Positions 2,506 to 36,800 of a DNA stretch of 37,325 nt are shown here, in pieces. Every line of letters begins with the position of its first letter. The first letter of the stretch is position 1. Source of the DNA: a virus; IMG/VR virus record IMGVR_UViG_3300035698_017730, positions 1 through 37,325 of that record; one strand, 5' to 3'. The notes beneath the pieces were generated by a model. The model did not search any database, was not told the origin of the DNA, and saw only the letters and a list, made by a program, of their open reading frames with translations. Both the position numbers and the translations under genes were made by a program.

Positions 2506-3537
2506 CTAGCTGATCACGGTGGCGTACAGCCAGGTTGACAGGTCTACGACCTCAGGGATGGTGTAGAGACCTGCGCCGACTTCCACTACCCAGGGATCCA
2601 CGGTCTCTTTGTTCCAACTGAACTTCCCAGTCTGGATGCCGTCAGGCCCCGGTGCGGTTCTCAGCTTGCCCACGGGCGTCGCAGGAAGCAGAAGGATGTC
2701 GGTGTCGGCCAAGAATCGAGTTGAGCTAACAGTCGGAAGGCCCGTGGAGGTGGAGCGGCTTGTGGTGGTGTACTTGGCATCGTAGACGATGACCTCGCTG
2801 ATGCCCGCCATCTTCAGCGCTTCCTTCACGAAGGAAGGCGTTAGCGTCGGCTCAAAGCCGGCCTGGCCAGTGAACCATAGGTCGCGCATCGCAGCGTTGC
2901 TGGCCAATGTACGTATGACCTTTCTGGATGCAACCATTATGGTGGGGTCAGTCCCGCACTTCTCGCCTACTTCCTCAACCCATCCCAGCAGGTCCTTGAT
3001 CGGCAATCCGTCGCTCTCATCCCACAGCGGATCGGCTGTTTTCTTCAGCGTAGAGCCGGTGAACGGGCCGGGGTAGTTGACGGTGAAGATGACCCCGCCG
3101 TCGCTCACGTCTATCTGCCCCTTCAGGGCGTTGAGGACCAACCATTCGCAGCGGGCGTCAAGGCGCTCAGACAGCTTTCGCACTTGCTTGGAAATCTGAG
3201 CCTTCTTGTCAAACTGCATCCTGGCCACCGGGGAGCGCTGCGAAGAAGCCACTTCCTCAAAGATGCGGATGTCAGACTGCTTGAACACGGCCTTCTGGCG
3301 AATGTAAGCCACGCTGTACGACAGTTTGCCGTAGATGTCCCCATCTACCACAGCGGTCTCGCCATCAATACTGACGAAGGGGGCAAGCGGGTTCTGATCC
3401 AGTTCAATCCAGGTGGTCAGCTCGTCCGCAGCGCAATCCTGGAACGGAAAGAGACGCGGGAAGATATACTTGCGATTGATAGGGGCCAGCCGTACTAGCC
3501 CCGTCAATTCGGGTTCTCTCATAAACGTTGGTAGCAT
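2506..3537 (-). CDS. Major capsid protein, lambda gpE-like
   Basis: A 343-residue protein that follows a decoration-protein gene and precedes a connector gene, the classical lambda-like order. The sequence fits the phage capsid E family. An early PINRKYIFPRLFP segment resembles the N-arm, followed by the motif-rich centre (DKKAQISKQVRKLSERLDARCEWLVLNAL) and a C-terminal strand region (DPWVVEVGAGLYTIPEVVD). HK97-fold proteins of this type form the icosahedral shell. Length is normal for gpE (about 340 residues). Processing by the upstream protease is possible, but no cleavage site can be read. Confidence 0.85.
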   Translation of the reverse strand: MLPTFMREPELTGLVRLAPINRKYIFPRLFPFQDCAADELTTWIELDQNPLAPFVSIDGETAVVDGDIYGKLSYSVAYIRQKAVFKQSDIRIFEEVASSQRSPVARMQFDKKAQISKQVRKLSERLDARCEWLVLNALKGQIDVSDGGVIFTVNYPGPFTGSTLKKTADPLWDESDGLPIKDLLGWVEEVGEKCGTDPTIMVASRKVIRTLASNAAMRDLWFTGQAGFEPTLTPSFVKEALKMAGISEVIVYDAKYTTTSRSTSTGLPTVSSTRFLADTDILLLPATPVGKLRTAPGPDGIQTGKFSWNKETVDPWVVEVGAGLYTIPEVVDLSTWLYATVIS

Positions 3538-4029: not shown

Positions 4030-5805
4030 TTAGCTGGCCTCGGCCTCCGCCGGGATCACGTCCCAGTTCATCTGCTTGGCGAACTCGCGGGCCCTTTCCT
4101 CGCCCTCTTTGAGTTCTTTCAAGCGGGCCTCTACGGTCTGGTCTTCCTCGGTGCTGGCTCTTTTCTCCAGCTTCTTGCCATCTGGCCCTGTGGTGAGCGT
4201 ACCCAAGCGGGTCGGGCACTCTTCCAGTAGCCGCACCATGGCCTCAAGATGTTGGTCTGGTCGGGCTGCGTCGCCCTCGGCCTCCAGGCTGATGATGCGC
4301 TCTGCGTCCTCGTGGCAGGCTGCCATCACTGGCTTGACCAGCTTGACGATGACGGGCGGGATGCCGCGAGTCTCGGCGGCCTTGATGTGCTTCTCCACCA
4401 GCATGTCGTGGCGCTCCCGCTCCAGGGACAGCAACCTATCGGTCTTGTCCTTGTTGTCGGTGGACAGGGTGCCAAGCTGGGTCTCAAGCTGCTTGATGCG
4501 CTCTGTGAGTTGCTCGTCGGCGAGGGCGGTGGCCTTTTCCTCCAGTGCCTTCGCTTCCTCTAGCGCCTTCTGTTCCAGCGCTTTCTGCTCTTCTAGTGCT
4601 TTTCCCTCTGCGGTCATTGTTGCCTCCTGTTTCTTGGTTTTTGATTTACTCTTCTTCACGGGGGCATACGTGACTTCCACCTCCTGCCAGTCGCCGAAGG
4701 TGACATTGCCCTCTTTGTCTTCGGAGTAGGAGATTTTGTAGAGCTTGTTATCCCGCTCTACAACGAGGTAGTCTTCGTAAATCCCCTTGGGCCACGGATA
4801 CCAGTCTTCTGCAACCGCCGCTGGCGTTGACGGTTTGCTAAATTGTGTTCTGAGGGCTCCACGGATTCTACTCTCGCGCTCGTCGAAGCTCTCGTCTAAT
4901 CCTTTTGTTTTCTTCACTGGCGGCAATCCCTTCATTTTGGCCCCACACTTGGGGCAGGTCATGTCGGCGCACGCTTTACCCCGTGCGTGTTTCGCCTTCG
5001 CCCCACATTCGGGGCACACACATTGATCCGTGCCGCCCACGCCTTGCTTGGGGCCGCCTACGCCCTGGCCCTCGCCGATTGCTTTTAGGATGATGGGGTC
5101 TTGCACATCTGCCGATAGCATGATTGGCACACCTACGGGGGGCATGTCTAAGAAGGGGCGGTTGGTCAAGGTGATTTCTTTAATGAGCACATCATCCCCT
5201 ACCTCTGTGTAGAGCGGTGAGATGAAACGGAACAACTTCTGGTTCACAATATCTTCACCCTTTGGCGTCCAAGCGGGCTTGCCGAGTAGGTATGTATCAC
5301 CAAGCGTCTTATGGATCGTCATGGCGTTCAGCCAGCCGCCAGCCCCATCTCCTGAGTGTCTGGTATCAATCGGCACTTGGGCATCCACGGGGGCATTGGG
5401 GCGATGGGCACAGGAATAGAAATTGGCCTGCGCGTTCTCCATCTTTGTCAAGGTCATTGAGAAGTCACCATAGCGCGGATCGTTCCACCCCCCCAGCATG
5501 TGCAAGGGGACCCATTCAGGCATCTCTTCCTTCAACTGCTCTAGGACGATGGGGCTGAAAAATATCTGCTCTTTCGGCTCGGTCTCGGTGAAGGTGCTGT
5601 CCTCTGCTTTCTTGGTGCTGTGCTTCTTTTCCCAATTTGTGGCGGCCCTCAAGGCGATAGCAAACGCATTTCCTGCGGGGCCAGTGTCCTTGTTTTTATT
5701 GCGCTCGCGCACTGCATCAAATGTGCTTGAATAGATTTGTCGTGCCTTGGCGGACATCTGCTTCACTGCGTCGGGTAGGTCTTTGCTGCTGGCGGTATAG
5801 GGCAT
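4030..5805 (-). CDS. ChaB domain - Mu gpI-like protease - zinc ribbon - scaffold fusion
   Basis: A 591-residue multidomain protein. Residues 1-60 match the ChaB family (MPYTASSKDLPDAVKQM, ARQIYSSTFD, AIALRAATNWEKK). Residues about 75-235 look like the Mu gpI prohead protease, with WVPLHML, DTRHSGDGAGGW, LFRFISPLY and EITLTNRPFLD. A zinc ribbon follows (CVCPECG, then CPKCGAK), and the C-terminal 200 residues are a Lys/Glu/Ala-rich coiled coil typical of internal scaffolds. The protein should shape and mature the procapsid. The frame is open back to 5946, but only the ATG at 5805 has an SD (AGGAGTGAG), and the upstream part crosses a terminator hairpin, so I chose 5805. The ChaB and zinc-ribbon additions are unusual. 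Confidence 0.85.
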   Translation of the reverse strand: MPYTASSKDLPDAVKQMSAKARQIYSSTFDAVRERNKNKDTGPAGNAFAIALRAATNWEKKHSTKKAEDSTFTETEPKEQIFFSPIVLEQLKEEMPEWVPLHMLGGWNDPRYGDFSMTLTKMENAQANFYSCAHRPNAPVDAQVPIDTRHSGDGAGGWLNAMTIHKTLGDTYLLGKPAWTPKGEDIVNQKLFRFISPLYTEVGDDVLIKEITLTNRPFLDMPPVGVPIMLSADVQDPIILKAIGEGQGVGGPKQGVGGTDQCVCPECGAKAKHARGKACADMTCPKCGAKMKGLPPVKKTKGLDESFDERESRIRGALRTQFSKPSTPAAVAEDWYPWPKGIYEDYLVVERDNKLYKISYSEDKEGNVTFGDWQEVEVTYAPVKKSKSKTKKQEATMTAEGKALEEQKALEQKALEEAKALEEKATALADEQLTERIKQLETQLGTLSTDNKDKTDRLLSLERERHDMLVEKHIKAAETRGIPPVIVKLVKPVMAACHEDAERIISLEAEGDAARPDQHLEAMVRLLEECPTRLGTLTTGPDGKKLEKRASTEEDQTVEARLKELKEGEERAREFAKQMNWDVIPAEAEAS

Positions 5806-5823
5806 AGGCTCACTCCTATAAAC

Positions 5824-5854
5824 AAAAATGCCCGACAGGTTTTCCTGTCGGGCA
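5824..5854 (-). terminator. Intrinsic terminator just upstream of the protease-scaffold SD
   Basis: A perfect 11-base inverted repeat (5829-5839 with 5844-5854) has a four-base loop. On the minus strand it is followed by TTTTTGTTT, a standard rho-independent terminator. It sits between the promoter at 6069-6097 and the SD of the gene starting at 5805, so it would end most transcripts before the gene unless it is antiterminated. Confidence 0.85.
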
Positions 5855-6062
5855 CACTTCGGTGCACTGATATGGAACGTGACGCTGGTGCTCTTGGCAC
5901 ACGGGTCGCTAAATTGTATGAGTCCAGCCCGCTTCCCAGCGGGCAATGTGCGCGGCCACCCCAGCCATTAGGGCTGGTTAAGTCACGCTAGGGGGGATAT
6001 AGAATTGCGCCAGGCCGTAGCCCCGCAATTACACGGCATGACAAGCCGAATTTAGTCCCCAC
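5826..6062 (-). ncRNA. Candidate structured leader RNA or small RNA ending at a terminator
   Basis: Transcription from the promoter at 6069-6097 would start near 6062 and meet six helices in a row. These are CGGC/GCCG (6034-6048); AATTGCG/CGCAATT (6003-6030) with an inner GGC/GCC; a closing helix of 5878-5883 with 5982-5987; inside it, hairpins at 5961-5977 (6 bp), 5927-5944 (7 bp) and 5888-5900 (4 bp); and finally the terminator at 5829-5854. A multibranch domain followed by a terminator is the shape of a regulated leader. It could equally be a stand-alone RNA of about 235 nt. I recognise no known riboswitch class in it, and its function is unknown. Confidence 0.6.
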
Positions 6063-6068
6063 CCCCCT

Positions 6069-6097
6069 ATTATACCACACTTTGCCTAATTTGTCAA
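6069..6097 (-). promoter_or_regulatory. Sigma-70 promoter for the capsid operon
   Basis: On the minus strand TTGACA (6092-6097), a 17-base spacer ending TGTGG and TATAAT (6069-6074) form a consensus promoter with an extended -10. It reads through the structured leader into the protease-scaffold gene. Confidence 0.9.
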
Positions 6098-6113
6098 GTA
6101 CCAATATTGGTAC
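6098..6113. promoter_or_regulatory. Operator-like palindrome between divergent promoters
   Basis: GTACCAATATTGGTAC is a perfect 16-base palindrome that abuts the -35 of the minus promoter. A third half-site, ATTGGTAC, at 6127-6134 abuts the -35 of the plus promoter. The same ATTGGTAC abuts the -35 at 32491-32498, and CTGGTAC does so at 27412-27418 on the minus strand. It is a plausible site for a shared regulator. Confidence 0.55.
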
Positions 6114-6134
6114 TATAAGATTGCAAATTGGTAC

Positions 6135-6163
6135 TTGACAAAACACTAAATCTGTGATATAAT
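6135..6163 (+). promoter_or_regulatory. Sigma-70 promoter for a plus-strand small RNA
   Basis: TTGACA (6135-6140), a 17-base spacer ending TGTGA and TATAAT (6158-6163) form a consensus promoter. No plus-strand gene follows for over 26 kb, but a stable RNA hairpin starts at 6170, where transcription should begin. Confidence 0.85.
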
Positions 6164-6169
6164 TACTCT

Positions 6170-6232
6170 TGATTGGTGGGTTCGCCCCTGTGGCTTGTGT
6201 CACCCACATCCAGGCTGAGCTACCCGCCATCA
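6170..6232 (+). ncRNA. Candidate small structured RNA
   Basis: The RNA would begin at the predicted start site with an 11-pair stem. Bases 6170-6173 pair with 6229-6232 and, past one bulged U, 6175-6181 pair with 6222-6228. One pair is G-U on this strand but would be a C-A mismatch on the other, which favours the plus strand. Inside, CCTG pairs with CAGG, and TGG with CCA around a ten-base loop. It lies in the gap after the Com-like gene and opposite the operon transcript. No family is recognised. The 3' end is not defined, since no terminator is visible, and longer read-through would be antisense to the Com-like gene. Confidence 0.55.
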
Positions 6233-6246
6233 CTTATCCTTCTCGC

Positions 6247-6486
6247 TTAGTAAGTAGCGAATTGTGGTCTCTGATACACTGTGCATATCTGTGACCAGTC
6301 AACGAATGTGGGCAGAAGCGCAAGTCGGTCGATATGCACCCTATTCACAGTCTTGCAGCGGGGACAGACCAGCGAGACTACGCCCACGGCGACACTCTCA
6401 AGGCAGATAGTCCTCCCGCATGACCTACACTGGACAGAGAGCAGATCGCCCTTACCCAAATGTGCAGAATCGGCACTTTTAGCCAT
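6247..6486 (-). CDS. Com-like zinc-ribbon protein
   Basis: A 79-residue protein with one zinc ribbon (C20-x2-C23 and C41-x2-C44; CRSCGRTICLES, VCPRCKTVNRV). This matches the Com family of Mu-like phages, where Com binds a stem-loop in mRNA and switches on translation of the following gene. The ATG at 6486 overlaps the stop of the upstream glycosyltransferase (TGATG). Codons 3-9 are formed by copy R2 of the palindromic repeat, giving the sequence KSADSAH. The C-terminal 30 residues are unlike classical Com. A role as a DNA- or RNA-binding regulator is inferred from family. Confidence 0.7.
   Translation of the reverse strand: MAKSADSAHLGKGDLLSVQCRSCGRTICLESVAVGVVSLVCPRCKTVNRVHIDRLALLPTFVDWSQICTVYQRPQFATY
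6462..6476. repeat. Palindromic regulatory repeat, copy R2
   Basis: The core GTGCAGAATCGGCAC lies within codons 4-9 of the Com-like gene, just after its start codon. On the mRNA it could fold into a hairpin in the translation initiation region. Confidence 0.85.
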
Positions 6487-9297: not shown

Positions 9298-10206
9298 TTA
9301 CGCAAACGCTTCGGCAATGATAGGCCACGCCCCACGCCCTTTGATTTCGTGTTCCCAGATTACCATGAACTCGTAGCCGTTGTCGGTGGCCCACCGCGCT
9401 TTTTCGGCATCGCGTTTCTGCTGTTCGGGTCGCTTAGGGCCATGCCAATAATCGCCTTGAACTTCAATCAGTGTATTCGGTGGAATGAACTCGTCATAGA
9501 TGCGGCTATAGCCTTCGGGACGGTATTGGGTTTGGTGTTCAATGCCCATGATGTCCAGGGCGGCGGCTATCTGGATTTCTATACTGGTGGGAGATTGGAA
9601 AACGCCGTCAAAGCAGCCGCGTTCCCAGGCGGCTTGCACACCCTCGGACATTTTGCGAAGACATTCCTCTGTATACATGTCGTCAAAATCCCCCCGCTCC
9701 CGTTGTGCTTTCGTTGCCTCGGAATTTTTGCGACGCCACTCTTCGCCATAAACCCCCTGTGCCCAAGCAGCCTTGATGGCTTCAGAGAGACCTTCAAAAT
9801 CCCCCCGTGCCCAAGCAGCCTTGATGGCTTCAGAGAGACCTTCAAAATCCCCACGTGCCCAAGCGGCCCTCATTGCTTCGGGTTGCCCATCATAATCCCC
9901 GCGTGCATGGGCGGCTCTTAGAGCTTCAGAGACATCATCATAATCCCCACGCGCATGGGCAGCCTTGATAGCCTCAGGAACGCTATCCATGCTCCCGCCT
10001 GCCCACTTTGCCTTCCCCGCACAAGACTTACAGCGCGTGGCCCTTCTATCTATCTCAGCCCCACAATCTATGCAATGACTTCTCCTCCTGCATCGCCCTG
10101 TCCCATAGCAACGCTCACATAATCCCTTGGCTTTATGTGGCCTTTCCGTCGTCCCACATTCTTGGCAACAATCCCAGTCCTGTGCCCACCGCCCGTCCTG
10201 CAACAT
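9298..10206 (-). CDS. Vsr-like (EDxHD-type) homing endonuclease with tandem DNA-binding repeats
   Basis: A 302-residue protein. N-terminal cysteine pairs (CCQEC, CERC, CIDCG, CKSC) suggest two zinc fingers. The middle, residues about 73-190, is a run of 16-residue repeats (SEAIKAAWARGDFEG) of the kind that contact DNA in free-standing homing enzymes. The C-terminal 90 residues have a Vsr-like nuclease core (SIEIQIAAALDIMGIEHQTQ, DEFIPPNTLIEVQGDYWHG, FMVIWEHEI). Such enzymes cut unoccupied sites and spread their own gene. The ATG at 10206 with GGAGGGG is preferred over an upstream in-frame start. The gene has its own promoter and hairpin leader. Confidence 0.8.
   Translation of the reverse strand: MLQDGRWAQDWDCCQECGTTERPHKAKGLCERCYGTGRCRRRSHCIDCGAEIDRRATRCKSCAGKAKWAGGSMDSVPEAIKAAHARGDYDDVSEALRAAHARGDYDGQPEAMRAAWARGDFEGLSEAIKAAWARGDFEGLSEAIKAAWAQGVYGEEWRRKNSEATKAQRERGDFDDMYTEECLRKMSEGVQAAWERGCFDGVFQSPTSIEIQIAAALDIMGIEHQTQYRPEGYSRIYDEFIPPNTLIEVQGDYWHGPKRPEQQKRDAEKARWATDNGYEFMVIWEHEIKGRGAWPIIAEAFA
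9761..9990. repeat. Tandem 48-base repeats inside the homing endonuclease gene
   Basis: About five units of 48 bases encode 16-residue DNA-binding repeats. Units at 9761-9808 and 9809-9856 differ by one base, while later units are more diverged. Near-identity of the first two points to a recent duplication. Confidence 0.85.
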
Positions 10207-10253
10207 ATTCCCCTCCAAAAAGGCAAGCCCCATCCAGCCCGGCGGTGTCTGTT

Positions 10254-10332
10254 GCTACGCAAGCACCAGTGTTTAGGCTGTCAGGGGCACGTATAAAGAA
10301 AAATCCGCCCTCTCTGGTGTTGCTTACGTAGC
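10254..10332 (-). ncRNA. Structured 5' leader of the Vsr-like homing endonuclease mRNA
   Basis: The predicted transcript starts within a few bases of 10332. There, 10323-10332 pair with 10254-10263 (10 bp including one G-U in RNA), and 10314-10319 pair with 10264-10269 (6 bp) after a three-base bulge. The loop holds a GGCGGATTTTTC segment and a second GGGC/GCCC helix. The leader ends about 50 bases before the ATG. A similar arrangement occurs before the other homing gene at 27307-27375. Confidence 0.6.
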
Positions 10333-12350: not shown

Positions 12351-13053
12351 CGTGTCCCTCCTTAAGGTGATGGTGTAAAAGCGTAAAGTGGTAAATGGTT
12401 GCAGGGCTGAATCCGACATTGAAACCCGCCCTTTGCGCGGCGAGGCAAAACTCGCGGTCGCTTCCAATGTGCGGATTCTGCACTTCGTCCAACAACCCCA
12501 CTGTCTCCAACACATCGCGCCGCAGCAGGAACACTGCACCCGTAACCCACTCTTTCCCTGCCCGACACACACGCTGCTCCCAGTAGCCGCTGTTTTCTTT
12601 ACGGATTCCGTAGTGGAACCCCGGTCCAAACGCGCCCGCGTGGTCGATTTTTCCGTCACCCGTCAAGGTTTTGCATCCCATGATGCCGCAGTCCAATTCG
12701 TACATATCCCCCAGCATGTGGGATAGCCAGCCAGGAAGCACCTCCACATCACTATTCAAGAGAAGAAAGTGAGTAAAGGGTGGAGTTTCAACTGCCATAG
12801 CCAACCGCAATCCCTGATTACAGGCTTCGGTAAACCAGAGGCGCTTATGGGGACAATGAGCCACAATCCAGCCCCCAGAAGCACATTCCTCAAGGTATGC
12901 TTTCATCTCCTCGTCAGGGTCACTAGAGACAACGATAATGTTGAAAGGAACCACGGTATGTTCCCAAACGCTATCTATGCAACCGCGCAGGAACTCAACG
13001 TCCCTGAAGCTAGGAACTATGATCGCCACACGGGAATTAACGAATGTCGGCAT
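12331..13053 (-). CDS. GT2 family glycosyltransferase, rhamnosyltransferase-like
   Basis: A 240-residue GT-A enzyme: RVAIIVPSFRDVEFLRGCIDSV, then IIVVSSD, with FLLLNSDVEVLPGWL as the metal-binding motif, and a later TGAVFLLRRDVLETVGLLDE acceptor-side motif like that of WbbL-type enzymes. The start overlaps the end of the preceding small gene by 17 bases, and there is no clear SD, so translational coupling is likely. A degenerate-flank copy (R3) of the palindromic repeat is embedded in the coding sequence and encodes VQNPH. Confidence 0.85.
   Translation of the reverse strand: MPTFVNSRVAIIVPSFRDVEFLRGCIDSVWEHTVVPFNIIVVSSDPDEEMKAYLEECASGGWIVAHCPHKRLWFTEACNQGLRLAMAVETPPFTHFLLLNSDVEVLPGWLSHMLGDMYELDCGIMGCKTLTGDGKIDHAGAFGPGFHYGIRKENSGYWEQRVCRAGKEWVTGAVFLLRRDVLETVGLLDEVQNPHIGSDREFCLAAQRAGFNVGFSPATIYHFTLLHHHLKEGHDGSQGI
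12469..12483. repeat. Palindromic regulatory repeat, copy R3 (inside coding sequence)
   Basis: GTGCGGATTCTGCAC keeps the 15-base core but lacks the AAA/TTT arms and lies in a GT2 gene, far from any start codon. It may be a functional site or chance retention. Confidence 0.6.
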
Positions 13054-14422: not shown

Positions 14423-15186
14423 TGTTTTCCTCCTGTATTGGGGTTCTCCCACCCCAGATTCCTCGTATCCTTTTTGAACTCCCACATTTCCGTCTCTACG
14501 CTGTCGCTGAACGCCTTCAACTGCTCACGAAAGTAACCCGCCAGTTCAAACATCGTCGGAATGCGTTCTTCGAGCGGCACTTGCCCGTTGTACCGTTCCA
14601 CGCCCTGCCAGTTATCCCTCCCCACCTTGCGCCACTTCACATCCAAGAGTAGGTGGTTTCGGGCGGCATAGGCCCAATAGTACGGTGATTTGGAGCCGTA
14701 GGCAGTCCATGGATGATTGACGCTGACCCTGTGATCGGCCAATACCTGATAGCCACGATGTGCTACTTCGTAGCCGAAATCCAAGTCCTGGTACTGTGTA
14801 AAGATGAAATCCTCGTCAAACTGTGCCCCCACACTCATCCTATACAGCGGTGCTATCCCATCCCAGTACTTAGGCAGTGGCTGGATGTGCATCTGTATCG
14901 GCTCCCCCTCTCGGTTAGGTCGTATCAACCCCACTTCAGGGTGCGCCTCCATGTAGTCGTACATCACCTGCAAATACTCAAAGTGCGGAATCTGCACATC
15001 TGTATGGAGCATGTGCCAGTATTTGGCCTTGCATCTATCCAGCGACACATTCTGCACCTTGGCCTCGTGATCGTACATGCACAGCCAATGCACACGCCCT
15101 GCATCACCTACCAGCTTCGCGGCCAGCTCGCACTGTTTGACTGCTGCCTCTTTGTCCCATCCCAAAATCCAGATTGCTACGTCCAC
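14419..15186 (-). CDS. GT-A (GT2-like) glycosyltransferase
   Basis: A 255-residue protein that starts at GTG 15186, eight bases after AGGAGG, with the TAG of the preceding gene sharing its first base. It begins MDVAIWILGWDKEAAVKQC. The segment KYWHMLHTDVQIPHFEYL fits the acidic metal-binding region of GT-A enzymes, and the later FTQYQDLDFGYEVAHRGYQV matches the GT2 C-terminal ED/Q pattern seen in O-antigen enzymes. Divergence is high, so the donor cannot be guessed. Copy R4 of the repeat is embedded here. Confidence 0.65.
   Translation of the reverse strand: MDVAIWILGWDKEAAVKQCELAAKLVGDAGRVHWLCMYDHEAKVQNVSLDRCKAKYWHMLHTDVQIPHFEYLQVMYDYMEAHPEVGLIRPNREGEPIQMHIQPLPKYWDGIAPLYRMSVGAQFDEDFIFTQYQDLDFGYEVAHRGYQVLADHRVSVNHPWTAYGSKSPYYWAYAARNHLLLDVKWRKVGRDNWQGVERYNGQVPLEERIPTMFELAGYFREQLKAFSDSVETEMWEFKKDTRNLGWENPNTGGKQ
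14983..14997. repeat. Palindromic regulatory repeat, copy R4 (inside coding sequence)
   Basis: GTGCGGAATCTGCAC, the 15-base core, has a left AAA arm but no right TTT arm. It lies inside a glycosyltransferase gene and not near a start codon. Confidence 0.6.
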
Positions 15187-23806: not shown

Positions 23807-23827
23807 AAAGTGCAGATTCGGCACTTT
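23807..23827. repeat. Palindromic regulatory repeat, copy R5
   Basis: A full copy with core GTGCAGATTCGGCAC at 23810-23824 and complete AAA/TTT arms. It lies in a 54-base gap between minus-strand genes, 21 bases before the start at 23788. Confidence 0.9.
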
Positions 23828-26042: not shown

Positions 26043-26413
26043 TCTGTTGCCTCCTCTTGTTTTGTTGTGTTACTCAATTCCGCCTCTTCATCCTCTGGGC
26101 GGGATGCCATCAAGAACCGAAACCACCACAGGCAGTCCAGCATCGTTCTAACCTTATGGTCTCCCATGATTGTCTTGGCTGACATAGACTCTTTCTCCTG
26201 AATAGCATCTCCGATAGCCTCCAGGAAATTCAGTACGAGCAACGTCTCTACTTCATCATACGTAGTTTTCTCATCCTCTGCATGCTCATCTATGAGGCGG
26301 AGCAAGGCAGACGCGGCGGCGTAGTCACTTTCCCTGACACTTAAGCTGACCACGCCCAACGTGATGATAGCGGGATGTTTCAATTCTGCTAGAACATGGA
26401 GAATGCCCATCAT
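26039..26413 (-). CDS. Protein of unknown function
   Basis: A 124-residue acidic, mostly helical protein, MMGILHVLAELKHPAIITLGV, with a Glu-rich C-terminus (RPEDEEAELSNTTKQEE). The start overlaps the end of the NUMOD3 nuclease gene, and the SD AGGGAGGGC is inside that gene. The stop overlaps the next start. No motif recognised. It sits in the region between portal and head morphogenesis genes. Confidence 0.6.
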   Translation of the reverse strand: MMGILHVLAELKHPAIITLGVVSLSVRESDYAAASALLRLIDEHAEDEKTTYDEVETLLVLNFLEAIGDAIQEKESMSAKTIMGDHKVRTMLDCLWWFRFLMASRPEDEEAELSNTTKQEEATE

Positions 26414-27261
26414 GCCCTCCCTACGCCAGCGGCGTGTTCGTAAGCCTTCAAAAGCTGCTCGCCTAGAACGATGAGGCGGATTCCAAGTTGCTCACGGACG
26501 GCGTTGAACTTCGCCCAGTCATCCTTGAAACTCCAGTGGGGATCAAAGTGACAGTCAAGCTCTGGTACGTAGAAGTCGGGGGTGTAAGTGTGGGGACCGT
26601 CAGCAAGCTCATATTGGAACTTGTGGGATTCGTACTCCCACTCCCAACCGAGGGCATCGAAGGCGGCGGCTAGGCGGGCCTCCCAGGTGGAGCGCATCTG
26701 GACGCCGGCGTAGGTGACAGAAGGAGGATGAAAATCCACATCATTAAAGTCTCCCTTCGCCCACGATGCCTTTTGGGCCACGCTCAATTTGCGCCGGTGC
26801 TCTTCACTTTTAGGCCGACCCTTAAGTGCTTCACTAATCCTATGCTTGCATATCGCCGATAGTTGCTTGCCTCTCCCACCCTCCGCAATCTTTTGCCGGT
26901 GTTCTTCTGACAGCCGCCTGCCCTGCTTTGCCTCACTAATCTTGCGTCGCGTTTCTTCGCCAATCACACGTCGCTTGTTTGCCTCGCCGATTTTGCGTCG
27001 GTGTTCCTCGCTAAAGGGCTTGCGCTGCCTTTGCGCCCGGCTCATGTTGCGACGCGCCTCTTCGTTACGAACCCTGCCCTTGTTGGCCGCCCCGATTTTT
27101 TGCTTAACTGCGTCGCTACAGGCAATCCCTTTATTCCATGCGCGCTTGCCCTTATGTGCTTCGCTCTGTGTGTGTCTATACTCTGGATCGCTCCAGTCTC
27201 GCTTCCGCGCCTCACTTATCTTGCGGCGAGACTCTTCGGTGTGGTGTGAGCCTTTGCGCAT
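26410..27261 (-). CDS. NUMOD3-repeat homing-endonuclease-like protein with atypical nuclease core
   Basis: A 283-residue protein. Residues 1-165 carry about nine NUMOD3-type repeats (SEEHRRKIGEANKRR and variants) that bind DNA in homing enzymes. The last 100 residues look like a restriction-type core (STWEARLAAAFDALGWEWEYES, HTYTPDFYVPEL, IRLIVLGEQLL). The expected Glu-x-Lys after the PDF strand is missing, replaced by ELDCHFDPHWSFKDD, so cleavage activity is uncertain. The gene has its own promoter and a hairpin leader, and SD GGGAGGGATA is strong. It interrupts the head gene order between portal and gpF. Confidence 0.75.
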   Translation of the reverse strand: MRKGSHHTEESRRKISEARKRDWSDPEYRHTQSEAHKGKRAWNKGIACSDAVKQKIGAANKGRVRNEEARRNMSRAQRQRKPFSEEHRRKIGEANKRRVIGEETRRKISEAKQGRRLSEEHRQKIAEGGRGKQLSAICKHRISEALKGRPKSEEHRRKLSVAQKASWAKGDFNDVDFHPPSVTYAGVQMRSTWEARLAAAFDALGWEWEYESHKFQYELADGPHTYTPDFYVPELDCHFDPHWSFKDDWAKFNAVREQLGIRLIVLGEQLLKAYEHAAGVGRA

Positions 27262-27306
27262 ATTATCCCTCCCAAACGGTAGCCCCCGCAGGCGGCGGCG
27301 TTGGTG

Positions 27307-27375
27307 TTGAGCAACATCCTTAACCTTTGGGGGCTATGGCAATGAAAAAACCGCCATAGGATTTAAGTTGCTCAA
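27307..27375 (-). ncRNA. Structured 5' leader of the NUMOD3 homing gene mRNA
   Basis: The predicted transcript begins at about 27376, exactly at a 9-bp stem (27367-27375 with 27307-27315). Next come ATCC/GGAT (27316-27319 with 27359-27362) and a 7-bp hairpin (27334-27340 with 27353-27359, sharing one base), whose loop contains GGTTTTTTC on the RNA. The layout mirrors the leader at 10254-10332. Confidence 0.6.
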
Positions 27376-27382
27376 CATCTAT

Positions 27383-27411
27383 ATTATACCATATTTTCCG
27401 CATCTTGTCAA
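27383..27411 (-). promoter_or_regulatory. Sigma-70 promoter of the NUMOD3 homing gene
   Basis: On the minus strand TTGACA (27406-27411), a 17-base spacer ending TATGG and TATAAT (27383-27388). CTGGTAC abuts the -35. The portal stop codon TGA lies inside the -35. Confidence 0.9.
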
Positions 27412-28880
27412 GTACCAGTTTCCTGCTCAAGCAGTCGAGTCACACCTGCAACAATCTCCTCTAGCACCTGTGGCTTTGCCTTAACCAGTTTGGCCGCTGC
27501 CGCCGTGGGCACTGTGAGTATCTTGGCAAGCTCAACCAGGGCGATACTGGGAAGGTCGGGGTGCCCCGCGTTCACAACCATTGCGAGGATGTTGTAAAGC
27601 AATCGCTTCTTGAGGCTAAAGAGGGGGTTGTGTCGCACGCTTGCATCAGGGGCCTGTGCCCCAAAGTGATCAACAACCAACTGCCTGATTACGTACTTGT
27701 TCACGTAGGTCAAGAAGTCCCACGCCAGTTTGTCCTCCACTGTCAAAAACGCCTCGAAACTTCCCATGCCCTCGTAATAACTACGTGTCTTGGACTCGGT
27801 GAAAGGTGCTTGCTCAACAAGAACCATCCCCCTGAGAATGTCGGCCTCCAACGCCTGGATGCCCGATCCATAGGGGTCCCCTCCGCTACTCGTGTCCAGC
27901 TGATCAACGTTCCACATTCTATTGCCCCGCTCGTCGCGGTCGCCAGGCAAGGCCATCGTGATGTGCTCCTCAAGGCGCCAAAGTTGCTGAGAAAGCCATT
28001 GGAGCGCGTCCGCCTCTTCACCAGATTCGTTCGTAAAACGACCTGTGGGGGCATAGCCAATGCGCGTGGGCGAGGCATGTTTTGAATACCAGAGAAGTCT
28101 GAGCACCCAGAGCTTTTGTAAATAAAACCAGCTTGGGTAGACATAATTCAGGGCACTCTCGCCCCAAAAACCCGCCCGTGCGAACTGCATGGGAAAAACG
28201 AACGCCTTCCAAGCCTCCACACGGATGTCCTTCGGACTCTTCTCCTGAAAATAGCCGTCGAAGTCCCCGTTTGGCTGAATGGGTAAGGACGGCTTGATTG
28301 TGGCTATGAGGTTGTAGCGATATTCTTTTGGCACTATCGCGTACCCGTCCCAGGCCACCTTCTTCTGCCCTGTTTGCGGGTCATCATAATCAATGTGCAA
28401 GTTCGGTGCCGCCTCAAACACCTTTTCACTGAACGTTGTGCCGTCCACCAGGGCTTGCATTGCCACTTCGCACAGGCTATACAGGTGTGGGCGCACAAAC
28501 ACCTCATGCACGAAGGCTTTGATACGTAAGTCTGAACACTCTACGTAGGCATCCTTCAGGGCCGCCTGCACCGGAGCAGTCTTCAGGGCTAGAGCGTATT
28601 GGATAGCGGGGCTTTTTCTCATCCTCTCCAGCGTTTCATAATCAATGTCGCTTGGCCTGTATTCCTCATTTAAGACCGAATACAGCCCCTTCCTACTCCC
28701 CCGATACGTCAACTCCCCCAGCTTCTGCTTCTCGGTGGGCGACTTTCCCGTAGCCAGCACTCGCAGGCGATCCCGCAGCGAAAGCCGCTTTCCATCCAAA
28801 GCCCCGATGTCTGTACGCATCCTTCTCGTCAGACCAGGGCCGATTGTCCGCTCAACACTTCGTGGTATTTGCATTGTCAT
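27408..28880 (-). CDS. Portal protein, Mu gp29-like (DUF935)
   Basis: A 490-residue protein of the Mu gp29 type. Landmarks are an early DYETLERMRKSPAIQYALALK, then CEVAMQALVDGTTFSEKVFE, the central WFYLQKLWVLRLLWYSKHASPTRIG, an ALPGDRDERGNRMWNVDQLD strand segment and a late YYEGMGSFEAFLTVEDKLAWDFLTYVNKYVIRQLV. Portals form the dodecamer through which DNA enters and leaves. ATG at 28880 has GGAGTAAACATAAA upstream and copy R6 of the repeat before that. The last codons overlap the promoter of the following nuclease gene, so the natural C-terminus may have been altered by insertion. Confidence 0.8.
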   Translation of the reverse strand: MTMQIPRSVERTIGPGLTRRMRTDIGALDGKRLSLRDRLRVLATGKSPTEKQKLGELTYRGSRKGLYSVLNEEYRPSDIDYETLERMRKSPAIQYALALKTAPVQAALKDAYVECSDLRIKAFVHEVFVRPHLYSLCEVAMQALVDGTTFSEKVFEAAPNLHIDYDDPQTGQKKVAWDGYAIVPKEYRYNLIATIKPSLPIQPNGDFDGYFQEKSPKDIRVEAWKAFVFPMQFARAGFWGESALNYVYPSWFYLQKLWVLRLLWYSKHASPTRIGYAPTGRFTNESGEEADALQWLSQQLWRLEEHITMALPGDRDERGNRMWNVDQLDTSSGGDPYGSGIQALEADILRGMVLVEQAPFTESKTRSYYEGMGSFEAFLTVEDKLAWDFLTYVNKYVIRQLVVDHFGAQAPDASVRHNPLFSLKKRLLYNILAMVVNAGHPDLPSIALVELAKILTVPTAAAAKLVKAKPQVLEEIVAGVTRLLEQETGT

Positions 28881-28903: not shown

Positions 28904-28924
28904 AAAGTGCCGAATCTGCACTTT
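28904..28924. repeat. Palindromic regulatory repeat, copy R6
   Basis: A full copy with core GTGCCGAATCTGCAC at 28907-28921 and AAA/TTT arms. It lies between the tRNA and the portal start, 26 bases before the ATG. The flank shared with R1 is about 30 bases long. Confidence 0.9.
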
Positions 28925-28939
28925 GTATTGTCTATCAGG

Positions 28940-29012
28940 GGCTGGCGGCAGGAATCGAACCCGCGACGGCCATATTACAAGTATGGTGCCCTACCTATTG
29001 GGCTACGCCAGC
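28940..29012 (-). tRNA. tRNA-Thr (anticodon TGT)
   Basis: Read on the minus strand, the acceptor stem GCTGGCG (from 29012) pairs fully with CGCCAGC (to 28941). The D stem is GCCC/GGGC, the anticodon stem CCATA/TATGG encloses CTTGTAA with anticodon TGT, and the T arm is GCGGG-TTCGATT-CCTGC. Length is 73 bases with C as discriminator and no encoded CCA end. It lies one base after the upstream gene stop and ends 16 bases before the R6 repeat, so it is embedded in the head operon transcript and must be cut out. Confidence 0.92.
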
Positions 29013-29858: not shown

Positions 29859-30081
29859 CTTCTCGCCCCCCCCTCAAATCCCCAACTTCTGCCTTCTCAG
29901 CTTTCTTCCTGTCCACTACCATCCCCATCAGGTGCGCCTGTTCCCACGTCAAGCCCCCACACATACAAAAGTCTTTTGGAGGCGGGAAAGGACGAGTATC
30001 TGTGTTGGTACTATTACTCGGCCAATCCCAAACGTGGGTATGCCCATAACAACCAACGGGAGCAATAGTAGAACTAGCCAT
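29851..30081 (-). CDS. Small protein with Cys/His pairs, unknown function
   Basis: A 76-residue protein with CYGHTHVW near residue 12 and FCMCGGLTWEQAHLMG near residue 40, which together could bind a zinc ion. The C-terminal third is basic then acidic. ATG overlaps the large terminase stop (TGATG). No family recognised. A role near packaging is suggested only by location. Confidence 0.55.
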   Translation of the reverse strand: MASSTIAPVGCYGHTHVWDWPSNSTNTDTRPFPPPKDFCMCGGLTWEQAHLMGMVVDRKKAEKAEVGDLRGGREDE

Positions 30082-31865
30082 CAAATCCCCAACCTCTTCC
30101 GCCGCTGCGCATCCTTCCGAGACTTCACATGCCCCGTACCCACGCCAGCCAGCACCGGCCTGATACTCCCCACATCCAGACCAGGCAGCCGCTCATTGCC
30201 CTGCCTGGTCAACCCAAAGTCCACGTCACGCATCCCCATCAGACCCGCACCCACAGCAGGCAACACAAAGTTGATATTGTACCGCTTGGCCAGAGTCCGC
30301 AACCGAGAGCAGGCAAACCACCACGCCATCAACACATCATCGCTCTCAAATCGAGGCCAGTAGTGCGCCTCGTTTATCAACAAATCCGTCAGCGTAATAG
30401 ACCGCTGATCGCCACGAGGCACCTTGTGCCGGCCCTGCTCCACCATAGCACTCAGAGAGGGGATGCCAACAGAGAAATCGTTCTTGTTGGCCCCCGTGAA
30501 AAACGGCCTCACACTCATAAACCCCGACGACGCTTCGGGCAAGTCCGCGATCAGGTACTGCTGCACCCCGTTGGACTCCACCATGATAGCACCGTCGTAC
30601 CTCTGCCACAGCTCCACGATCTTGCGTTTCTGCTTCGTGGGCGACATCCCCTTCTCGTGGAAAATGTCCAGCCACACAATGCGCCCCTCTTTATCCAGTC
30701 CCAGCGTCACCGCTGCGAAGTGGCTGGCCTTCTTCGCACCAGAGATAGCTGGGTCAACCCCCGTCACCTTCACCAACGCGCCGTCGTGGTTCTCAATCGG
30801 CAACACCAAGTCAGTGTCGTAACACCGCCGGAACCACGGCATCGGGAAGTGCGAATCCTCGTCCGACATTACACGAAGTAAATAGTTGCGGTTGAACTGG
30901 ACGCTACCTTGAGCCTGCCTTCGCTTCATCAGCGCGTCATAGGGCCACTTTTCGGGCCACAGCACCCGTTTAGTGTCGTCGTCCAGGATGGCGGGCGACT
31001 GGAAGTTCTTAAAGGCTTCGTTCTTGAGCAGGTCTTGGTAGAGGTCTCGGTAGCTCTTGGGGGTCCCCACCACCACGCACTGGCCGTCCCGCACGATCAT
31101 GCTGAGGGAGTCTTGAAACCATGACTTGGCCTTTTCGCACTGGAACTCTGTGGCCGAGTTGTCGTCGTCAATGCAGTCGTCGTAGATATTCACGTCACTA
31201 CGACGACCAATGGTGGGCGACCCCATGCCCAGCGCAACTACAGTCTGGTCTTTCTCGATCTGTATCTGGGTGGGGTCGTCGGCTGCCGCTACCCTGCGCC
31301 GCACCGTGATCCCGTCCGTCAGCCATCCCCGCCCCATCGGGAGGGGGAAGCCCTCATAGTCCTCCGAGAAGGCGTCCCGTGTGCCAAACCCTGCAAGGAT
31401 GTAGGGGTTGTGATCCAGGTGGCCCTTGAGGCCACTCAAGAACATTCGAGCTTGCTCCATCGTGTTGCTCAGTAAGGCGATTCGCACCGACCTATCACAG
31501 CAGATCCGCCAGAGGGGGTAGAAGATGCTATTCAGAGAAGATTTGGCGTGTTCTCTCGACGTGAGGTTGATGTAGTAGGGGTGCCTTGCCAGCAACCAGT
31601 ACCACCCATCCCCCTTCCGCCCGTGGAAGTCGGGAATAGCCAGAGGGGGACGGACGAAGTTCTCTACGAAGAAGACGAGGGACTCGTGGTGCTTCTCGGC
31701 CCGCTCCTCGCTCCACGCGGGAAACTCTAGCCCTTGCCTATAAAGGGAAAGCACCAGATTCGCCCGCAGCGTCAGGGGCGACAGGTGCTTCAACGTCTCT
31801 AATGTCTCCTGGCTCAACTGTGATTGTGGGGCCAGTGATTTGTTGTTGTGCTCGCTCGGCGACAT
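30081..31865 (-). CDS. terL: Terminase large subunit
   Basis: A 594-residue protein. The ATPase half has ALLSNTMEQARMFLSGLKGHL (adenine/coupling region) and SDVNIYDDCIDDDNS as Walker B with nearby acidic residues. The nuclease half has VTGVDPAISG, IMVESNGVQQYLI and ESDDVLMAWWFACSRL, the three acidic clusters of the RNase H-like fold. It cuts and pumps DNA into procapsids. The frame starts at ATG 31865 with no clear SD and overlaps the small-terminase gene by 128 bases. A start further in, for example a TTG near 31793 after AGGAG, is possible. Confidence 0.9.
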   Translation of the reverse strand: MSPSEHNNKSLAPQSQLSQETLETLKHLSPLTLRANLVLSLYRQGLEFPAWSEERAEKHHESLVFFVENFVRPPLAIPDFHGRKGDGWYWLLARHPYYINLTSREHAKSSLNSIFYPLWRICCDRSVRIALLSNTMEQARMFLSGLKGHLDHNPYILAGFGTRDAFSEDYEGFPLPMGRGWLTDGITVRRRVAAADDPTQIQIEKDQTVVALGMGSPTIGRRSDVNIYDDCIDDDNSATEFQCEKAKSWFQDSLSMIVRDGQCVVVGTPKSYRDLYQDLLKNEAFKNFQSPAILDDDTKRVLWPEKWPYDALMKRRQAQGSVQFNRNYLLRVMSDEDSHFPMPWFRRCYDTDLVLPIENHDGALVKVTGVDPAISGAKKASHFAAVTLGLDKEGRIVWLDIFHEKGMSPTKQKRKIVELWQRYDGAIMVESNGVQQYLIADLPEASSGFMSVRPFFTGANKNDFSVGIPSLSAMVEQGRHKVPRGDQRSITLTDLLINEAHYWPRFESDDVLMAWWFACSRLRTLAKRYNINFVLPAVGAGLMGMRDVDFGLTRQGNERLPGLDVGSIRPVLAGVGTGHVKSRKDAQRRKRLGI

Positions 31866-32498: not shown

Positions 32499-32527
32499 TT
32501 GACAAACTTGAAGAAATGTGATATAAT
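32499..32527 (+). promoter_or_regulatory. Sigma-70 promoter of the early plus-strand operon
   Basis: TTGACA (32499-32504), a 17-base spacer ending TGTGA and TATAAT (32522-32527). ATTGGTAC abuts the -35 at 32491-32498. Transcription would start near 32534 and run through the opposing promoter. Confidence 0.9.
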
Positions 32528-32568
32528 TAGTACAGGCGTTTCAATACAGCCCAAATCCCTACCCACAT

Positions 32569-32597
32569 ATTATATCACAAAATTGGGGGAATGTCAA
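32569..32597 (-). promoter_or_regulatory. Sigma-70 promoter of the packaging/head operon
   Basis: On the minus strand TTGACA (32592-32597), a 17-base spacer ending TGTGA and TATAAT (32569-32574). It faces the plus promoter 42 bases away, and its -35 lies at the start of the LexA-like gene. Confidence 0.9.
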
Positions 32598-33750: not shown

Positions 33751-33771
33751 AAAGTGCAGATTCGGCACAAT
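33751..33771. repeat. Palindromic regulatory repeat, copy R7
   Basis: Core GTGCAGATTCGGCAC at 33754-33768 with a left AAA arm. It is in the 39-base gap before the nuclease gene and ends 16 bases before the ATG at 33785, just upstream of the GGGGGGAG SD. Confidence 0.85.
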
Positions 33772-35041: not shown

Positions 35042-35290
35042 ATGGCAACATCAACATTAGCAAGCGGCCTGTGTGTAGGCGACGTACTACTCGGCAAGAG
35101 GATCGCAATTCTTGCACCATCCCGACGGGTCTCGAAAGGCGGTTCGCGTTACGGCTACATCATACCTATCACATTCCAGGATGGCACAACCATGAAGATA
35201 GACGAAGAAGCAGCCGTATTGGTTGAAAGGTATGAAATAGCAGAGGAGATACATGAGGTTCCCCATACTCAGGAAGACCAAACAGAATAA
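35042..35290 (+). CDS. Small protein of unknown function
   Basis: An 82-residue protein starting after AAGGAGGATGTC at ATG 35042; in-frame upstream starts lack an SD. Strand-rich middle (RYGYIIPITFQDGTTMKIDEEAAVLV) ending in a Glu-rich tail. The next gene begins within its last 13 codons, so the two are coupled. No family recognised. Confidence 0.6.
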   Translation: MATSTLASGLCVGDVLLGKRIAILAPSRRVSKGGSRYGYIIPITFQDGTTMKIDEEAAVLVERYEIAEEIHEVPHTQEDQTE

Positions 35291-36800
35291 AGACCTCCCC
35301 ACCGAGGTCGTCGCCCGCCAGGCCGTCGCCAAGCTACTCCACCGCCTCAACACGCGGCTGGGCTACACCAAGAAGGACGGCGAGGTACAACGCCTGCATT
35401 TGGCGGGGGAAGCAACGGGGCAGGCCCAGATCGTGATGAGTGCAGGGGGGCGATTCGTGCAGGTACTCGTAGACCTGCAACGCCTCCCCCGCAAGATCAC
35501 AGTAGACGACCTCACCGATCCCGCCCTCCTCCGCGACCTCACGGTCGTCGTGGGCAAGCCCGTCCGTGCAAGGGGGCGTGAGGGTCTGTTCATGTTCGGC
35601 ATTGACCTGCGGCCAGAGGAGTCGCCTCGCTACCGCCTTCCCAAGAGCGTCACCCTCGACCTGGGCAAGCGACCTGCTGGTCAGTACATGATTCCCCTGG
35701 GCGAGTCTGCCGACGGGCCGCTGTGGGGATCCCTCCTAGACAGCATCTATAATATTTTATTGGCGGGGCCTACCCGATCTGGAAAATCCAATCAACTCCA
35801 CAGTATGCTCTGTGCATTACTTGCCGCTCACGGGCCGGACACCCTCAAGCTGGCTATTATGGACGCCAAAGGAGGCGTTGAATTAGCAGCCTACGCCGGC
35901 CTTCCCCACCTGCTCTTTCCTATCGCCCGTGACGTGGGCGAGGCCCAGGCTCTGCTGCGCCAGCTAAACACAGAGGTTCATCGCCGCGAAGTGCTTCTGA
36001 AGGGGAAAGGGGTACGCAATTGGCAAGACTACAACAAGCAGGTACTCCCTGACGAGCAACTGCCCCTCATTGTGCTAGTTATAGACGAGTTTCTAGTCCT
36101 GACCGTTGATGCGGGCGGCGCCACCCTCAATGTCCCCTTCACTCGCGAATTAGTTAAATTCGTCACGAAGGTTTGCGCCTTCGGTTTCCGTTGTCCAATC
36201 TCCGTCAGCATGGCCAAGAGCGTAATCATGGATACCAGCATCCGCACCGCCTGTACTACGCGCTTTTCATTTTGGGCCGTGAGCAAGGCCGAGGCCCAAC
36301 TAGCCCTGGGTACATTACCCGAAGGCATCAAGCTCCCCGCCCGCAATATCCCAGGCCGCGCCCTGGTGCGCATTGACAGTCAGTTCTACGAGCTCCAGAC
36401 CTATCACACCCCTACTGATCTGACCCAGGCTATCATCGCCCGCGCCGGCGCCGTCAATGGCTACCCGTTGCTCACCGACCAAGAACGCACCGTCGCCCAG
36501 TACGCCGTCCACGAGTTAGCCGGCGCGTTCAACCTAGCAGCCATCTACGAATGGATGGGGCCCAAGAACGTCCCGCGCCACAACGGCGGCATCTCCTATC
36601 GCTATCTCAGGCAATTGGGGCAGGACTGGGAGCTTCGTGGCTGGCTCTCGGCGGATGGCGACCCCACCACTGCCCGCCGTGTCACCGATACTCTACTCAA
36701 GGCTCTGCAAGCGTGTCCCGTCGCCCTCACTATCGCCGAGCGGCGGCGCCGTGCTTGGGAGCTAGAACAAAGTGCCGAATCTGCACTTTTGGAGGAATAG
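35253..36800 (+). CDS. FtsK/SpoIIIE-like DNA translocase
   Basis: A 515-residue ATPase with Walker A AGPTRSGKS (residues about 171-179), Walker B LIVLVIDEF (272-280), and the FtsK-type strand LKLAIMDAKGGVELAAYAGLPHL between them. The C-terminal 100 residues look like a winged-helix DNA-binding part (AVAQYAVHELAGAFNLAAIYEWMG). There is no long N-terminal membrane region, so it resembles soluble translocases of phages and plasmids. It may move or partition phage DNA. The last ten residues are encoded by repeat R8. SD GAGGAGATAC. Confidence 0.85.
   Translation: MRFPILRKTKQNKDLPTEVVARQAVAKLLHRLNTRLGYTKKDGEVQRLHLAGEATGQAQIVMSAGGRFVQVLVDLQRLPRKITVDDLTDPALLRDLTVVVGKPVRARGREGLFMFGIDLRPEESPRYRLPKSVTLDLGKRPAGQYMIPLGESADGPLWGSLLDSIYNILLAGPTRSGKSNQLHSMLCALLAAHGPDTLKLAIMDAKGGVELAAYAGLPHLLFPIARDVGEAQALLRQLNTEVHRREVLLKGKGVRNWQDYNKQVLPDEQLPLIVLVIDEFLVLTVDAGGATLNVPFTRELVKFVTKVCAFGFRCPISVSMAKSVIMDTSIRTACTTRFSFWAVSKAEAQLALGTLPEGIKLPARNIPGRALVRIDSQFYELQTYHTPTDLTQAIIARAGAVNGYPLLTDQERTVAQYAVHELAGAFNLAAIYEWMGPKNVPRHNGGISYRYLRQLGQDWELRGWLSADGDPTTARRVTDTLLKALQACPVALTIAERRRRAWELEQSAESALLEE
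36769..36789. repeat. Palindromic regulatory repeat, copy R8
   Basis: Core GTGCCGAATCTGCAC at 36772-36786 with AAA and TTT arms. It overlaps the C-terminal codons of the translocase gene and ends 16 bases before the next ATG, immediately upstream of its SD. Confidence 0.9.

Follow-up and report, generated by a model that had tools for sequence, protein, structure and literature searches.

The window, by which we mean the whole stretch of DNA analysed, is a complete IMG/VR virus record (37,325 bases, 55% G+C). This record appears to be a fragment of a tailed-phage genome, in which the late genes head to the left end and no tail module is seen. The late genes that define the locus are listed with their family matches.

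30081-31865, minus strand: terminase large subunit gene (phrog_38, 1e-64)
27408-28880, minus strand: portal gene (Portal_Mu, 7e-9)
4030-5805, minus strand: Mu I-like head protease/scaffold gene (PF10123, 2e-7; phrog_328), with the SD AGGAG and an ATG at 5805
2506-3537, minus strand: major capsid protein E gene, downstream of the protease gene (PF03864, 1e-20; phrog_29, 4e-34)

The terminase and portal genes lie upstream of the leader described below, on the same strand, and the protease and capsid genes lie downstream. The preliminary description had placed the protease gene first in a late operon, which does not hold with terminase and portal genes ahead of it. The head operon is split by a block of sugar genes of ~20 kb (6486-27408, minus strand) that parts the portal gene from the protease gene and encodes glycosyltransferases, a nucleotide-sugar epimerase, a methyltransferase, a radical SAM protein and homing-endonuclease-like ORFs. 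Two of the latter have a perfect promoter and a long-inverted-repeat leader: the ORF at 26410-27261 (NUMOD3, minus strand; leader 27262-27376, fold z -2.35) and the ORF at 9298-10233 (five 48-nt repeats, minus strand; leader 10234-10332, fold z -2.19).

The stretch ahead of the protease gene contained the following elements.

6247-6486, minus strand: gene for a Com-like zinc-ribbon protein (phrog_6417), directly upstream of the leader promoter
6135-6163, plus strand: perfect promoter in divergent orientation, pointed away from the leader
6096-6141: control region shared by the divergent promoters 6097 (minus) and 6135 (plus)
6069-6097, minus strand: perfect sigma70-type promoter, TTGACA-17-TATAAT, with TG before the -10
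5820-5855, minus strand: intrinsic terminator, GTGCCCGACAGG-AAAA-CCTGTCGGGCAT TTTTGTTT, a hairpin with a U-tract

Perfect TTGACA-17-TATAAT promoters occurred six times in the window, compared with a mean of 0.005 per shuffle, and the leader terminator was the sole hairpin with at least 10 perfect pairs and a T-run (any such hairpin was present in 2 of 200 shuffles). Because of these shuffle counts, the leader promoter and terminator are beyond chance. The consensus promoter reported in the preliminary description was confirmed on the minus strand, and the start of transcription would be expected near 6062. Between promoter and terminator lies a leader of about 235-240 nt with no gene, which bears out the earlier figure of about 235 bases. 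The terminator hairpin (5855-5828) has 11 perfect pairs (12 in a looser scan), a loop of AAAA and the tail TTTTTGTTT; alone it folds at -23.5 kcal/mol, and within the leader its formation probability was ~1. As described earlier, this 11-bp terminator comes shortly before the start codon, with ~22 nt, containing the AGGAG SD, between it and the ATG at 5805. In this gap no promoter was found, and therefore any transcript of the protease gene has to pass the terminator. The preliminary description was sound in concluding that the protease and capsid genes need read-through.

The control region carries a perfect 18-bp palindrome, AGTACCAATATTGGTACT, adjoining the minus-strand -35, and a second TTGGTACTTGACA half-site. 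Its TGGTACTTGACA box was found again at promoters -27411 and +32499, the latter of which heads a LexA-type winged-helix ORF at 32591 (plus strand). Judging from these motifs, the region may function as an operator, and it is reasonable to suppose that the leader promoter is probably under a phage DNA-binding protein acting at the palindrome near its -35. Promoter -27411 and the end of the portal gene overlap at the point at which the insertion begins; promoter -6097 is placed where the head genes start again. Downstream of the divergent promoter at 6135 (plus strand) no gene or strong terminator was recognised, and the fold z of 6164-6400 (plus strand) was +0.56. A tRNA remnant at 6164-6240 (minus strand) was considered and ruled out, having no ARAGORN or Rfam support. 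At 32499-32597 two perfect promoters face each other, with transcripts that would overlap at their starts; one serves the LexA-type winged-helix ORF (32591, plus strand) and the other aims at the terminase genes.

Helices can be drawn in the leader at the places that the preliminary description had named, and these fall into two domains.

5876-5990, minus strand: three-way-junction domain with the closing helix P1 GCGUGAC/GUCACGU, P2 CCAGCC/GGCUGG, and P3 GGUG/CACC with GCGCAC/GUGUGC and GCCCGCU/AGCGGGC
5990-6067, minus strand: 5' leader domain with a G-run/C-run closing helix and the hairpins CGGC/GCCG and AAUUGCG/CGCAAUU

The fold of the full leader had a z of -2.4 against dinucleotide shuffles, which is owed to the terminator. 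When the terminator was left out, z was only -0.09 (5860-6062) and -0.23 (5860-6067), and 432 and 379 of 1000 shuffles, respectively, folded as well. The three-way domain alone gave z values of -2.0 to -2.15 (38/1000 and 29/1000 shuffles; p about 0.03, uncorrected, for a domain picked post hoc), and in some cases the minimum-energy fold of the full-length leader did not contain it. The 5' domain was not significant (z -1.3; 105/1000 shuffles as good). The multi-helix drawing, including the three-way domain, therefore stands as a drawing, but the unusual structure that it suggested does not, with z at ~-0.1 once the terminator is removed. Structure in the leader beyond the terminator is possible, unsupported by these fold statistics. 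An Rfam search of the leader at gathering and permissive thresholds, a comparison proposed in the preliminary description, returned only miRNA/sRNA noise and matched no known class. We found no evidence that the leader RNA is a new RNA class.

The same measurements bear on two simpler or more elaborate accounts of the leader. It could be a plain untranslated leader whose terminator is leaky or is an mRNA-processing hairpin, with no regulation; a stability no greater than that of shuffles outside the terminator, together with the empty Rfam search, agrees with this, but this terminator far exceeds any other in the window in strength, and the control region of the promoter is palindromic; we regard this account as unlikely. 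A riboswitch had been raised earlier on. As a riboswitch or attenuator, the leader would alternate between terminator and antiterminator folds, and the multi-helix drawing, the z of about -2 for the three-way domain and the position of the terminator near the SD would all suit it. For the terminator's 5' arm, however, no antiterminator partner exceeded chance: 350 of 500 shuffles paired with it as well, so an antiterminator switch was rejected as a candidate. A leader-encoded peptide was also rejected, as the 19-codon ORF present has no SD. With no leader peptide with an SD, no Rfam class and no unusual stability outside the terminator, a switch of this kind is very doubtful. Because nothing upstream pairs with the terminator's 5' arm better than chance, read-through would be better ascribed to a factor acting on polymerase, or to plain leakage, than to an RNA switch.

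The gene directly upstream of the leader promoter offers one candidate for a leader-binding factor. Its product matched phrog_6417 ('translational regulator') at 8e-6, and scored 17.9 bits against PF10122 (Zn_ribbon_Com), under the cut-off of 22.9. The binding site of the Com protein of phage Mu is CC(N)2-3GAG within a hairpin loop that a C-G pair closes (PMC6483171), and a hairpin that fits this motif can be drawn in the leader.

5888-5900, minus strand: alternative hairpin GUG[CCAAGAG]CAC, with the C-G closing pair of the Mu Com motif

This hairpin is excluded once the three-way domain forms, and is exposed or hidden in alternative folds. Com-type hairpins with a stem of at least 4 numbered ten in the window on both strands, with about 0.03 expected per leader. 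The Com-like protein might bind the leader and change how the protease gene is translated or how termination ahead of it proceeds, in the manner of Mu Com on mom mRNA, and the adjacency of the gene, the phrog_6417 match and the fit of the hairpin to the consensus speak for it. Against it, the PF10122 score is below the cut-off, and the hairpin has only 4 bp, was found after the fact, is one of ten such in the window and lies ~85 nt from the ATG, unlike the arrangement at mom. Compared with Com-mom, the locus has in common a Com-like gene upstream and a leader hairpin with CC(N)2-3GAG, and differs in the Pfam score, the weakness of the hairpin and a protease gene rather than mom downstream. We consider such binding improbable, and treat gene and hairpin as a lead, not as evidence. 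It is more improbable still that the three-way domain is a receptor for the adjacent Com-like protein, switching read-through into the head-protease and capsid genes. To our knowledge, protein-RNA antitermination by a Com-type protein has not been described to date.

The preliminary description knew of no class with this arrangement of promoter, leader and terminator. The arrangement is not new, being that of the lambdoid late promoters pR'-tR' (Q), of StxS and of IsrK, and the phage leader is a further case of it; we do not claim membership in the lambdoid Q system. The late leader of lambda, the '6S' RNA, is 194 nt. As at lambdoid pR'/tR', a strong, constitutive-looking sigma70 promoter is followed by an untranslated leader and, no more than ~200-250 nt on, by an intrinsic terminator shortly ahead of late genes (about 200 nt of leader in the lambdoid case), and the downstream genes are reached by read-through only. 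Unlike pR'/tR', the leader here lies inside a split head operon rather than heading all late genes and has no sequence relationship to it. No antitermination protein of the Q family or otherwise was recognised among the ORFs scanned, which were part of those in this fragment-like record. A TAAATT at about +9 to +14 of the leader, picked out by eye, is a chance-level candidate for a lambda-type pause element. Lambda Q is the polymerase-modifying factor for read-through (PMC7171158). In Stx phages the sRNA StxS is produced by processing of the pR'-tR' transcript (PMC7873438). StxS, likewise the terminated leader of a phage late operon, sets a precedent for an abundant sRNA arising in this way; the leader here differs in having no sequence match in the phage collection. 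In the Gifsy-1 prophage, one promoter yields the terminated small RNA IsrK and a read-through mRNA (PMC4825925), an output that the leader would share, with other genes and other sequences; IsrK itself acts on an antiterminator circuit.

Two further phage systems resemble the locus in part. The late promoter P_I of phage Mu stands before gene I, needs the activator C and is not a sigma70 consensus. What the two have in common is a promoter that immediately precedes a gene I-type protease gene among head genes, and the difference is dependence on activator C as against the sigma70 consensus promoter here. The put RNA of phage HK022 consists of short double stem-loops, a structured nascent RNA that makes polymerase terminator-resistant. 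The leader might do the same as a structured nascent RNA, but has no sequence or Rfam match.

Our preferred reading, to which we give a probability of about 0.48, is that the leader is a promoter/terminator gate working like the lambda late leader. A strong promoter of the host sigma70 type would fire where the head genes resume after the ~20-kb sugar-modification insertion, and unmodified RNA polymerase would make an untranslated RNA of roughly 235-240 nt, mostly halting at the intrinsic terminator. Read-through, by a phage factor making polymerase terminator-resistant or by leakage, would give the protease-capsid mRNA. The terminated RNA would probably build up as a small RNA, possibly with a function of its own. 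In favour of the gate are the perfect promoter and the window's only strong terminator on either side of the leader, the head genes on both sides of the sugar-gene block and the anatomy shared with well-studied precedents. Against it, the ORFs scanned in this fragment-like record included no recognisable antitermination protein, and the candidate pause element is at chance level. Late transcripts from upstream may also run across the site, in which case the head mRNA might come from elsewhere than the local promoter.

In another account, promoter, RNA and terminator are an independent cassette, an RNA 'moron', making a trans-acting small RNA while head transcription from far upstream passes through. 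Its own promoter and terminator do bound a gene-free stretch amid co-directional late genes, and the perfect promoters -27411 and -10367, which head hairpin leaders of homing-endonuclease-like ORFs, indicate that self-contained cassettes exist in this genome. The distance of 22 nt between the terminator and the protease ATG, however, is like that in leader-type gates, and only one other promoter (-32597, 26 kb upstream), which heads the terminase genes, is well placed for the whole late block. We hold the cassette to be possible but rather unlikely.

Searches for relatives of the locus gave the following results. A blastn search for homologous leaders in phages and plasmids was empty, promoter-pattern searches of viral contigs returned either none or 58 generic strong promoters with no leader similarity, and an 18-mer leader pattern found four chance matches with no shared proteins. 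Scans with the capsid, terminase, FtsK and portal proteins detected no close relative. A search with a two-sequence terminase alignment recovered 80 loci at 24-31% identity, which share no other window gene among those tested; no phage had a terminase closer than about 30% identity in the collections searched, and in 398 genomes of one phylum the terminase matches were weak only. If it works as proposed, the gate would be an instance of a lambda-like late gate set at the break that a large insertion makes in the head operon, instead of ahead of all late genes, and the phage carrying it has no close relative among the collections that were searched. Such a gate would also be a candidate for producing an abundant small RNA of the phage. 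As a mechanism it is textbook, and its value would lie chiefly in the way phages re-wire a broken head operon.

Some other features of the window were recorded. The right arm encodes an FtsK/SpoIIIE-like protein (35253-36800, plus strand; PF01580, 4e-25; phrog_1358), which also matched SspH defence models. A near-palindromic 21-nt repeat, AAAGTGCMGAWTCKGCACTTT, whose 19-nt core had no exact match in other viral contigs searched, is present in eight copies (0 expected), at 1417-1437, 6459-6479, 12466-12486, 14980-15000, 23807-23827, 28904-28924, 33751-33771 and 36769-36789. Five of the eight copies lie directly upstream of gene SDs, on both strands, one is at the start of the Com-like gene, and two are in coding sequence. 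Amid the late genes, a tRNA-Thr (TGT) gene (28938-29012, minus strand) lies directly upstream of the portal gene and one copy of this repeat.
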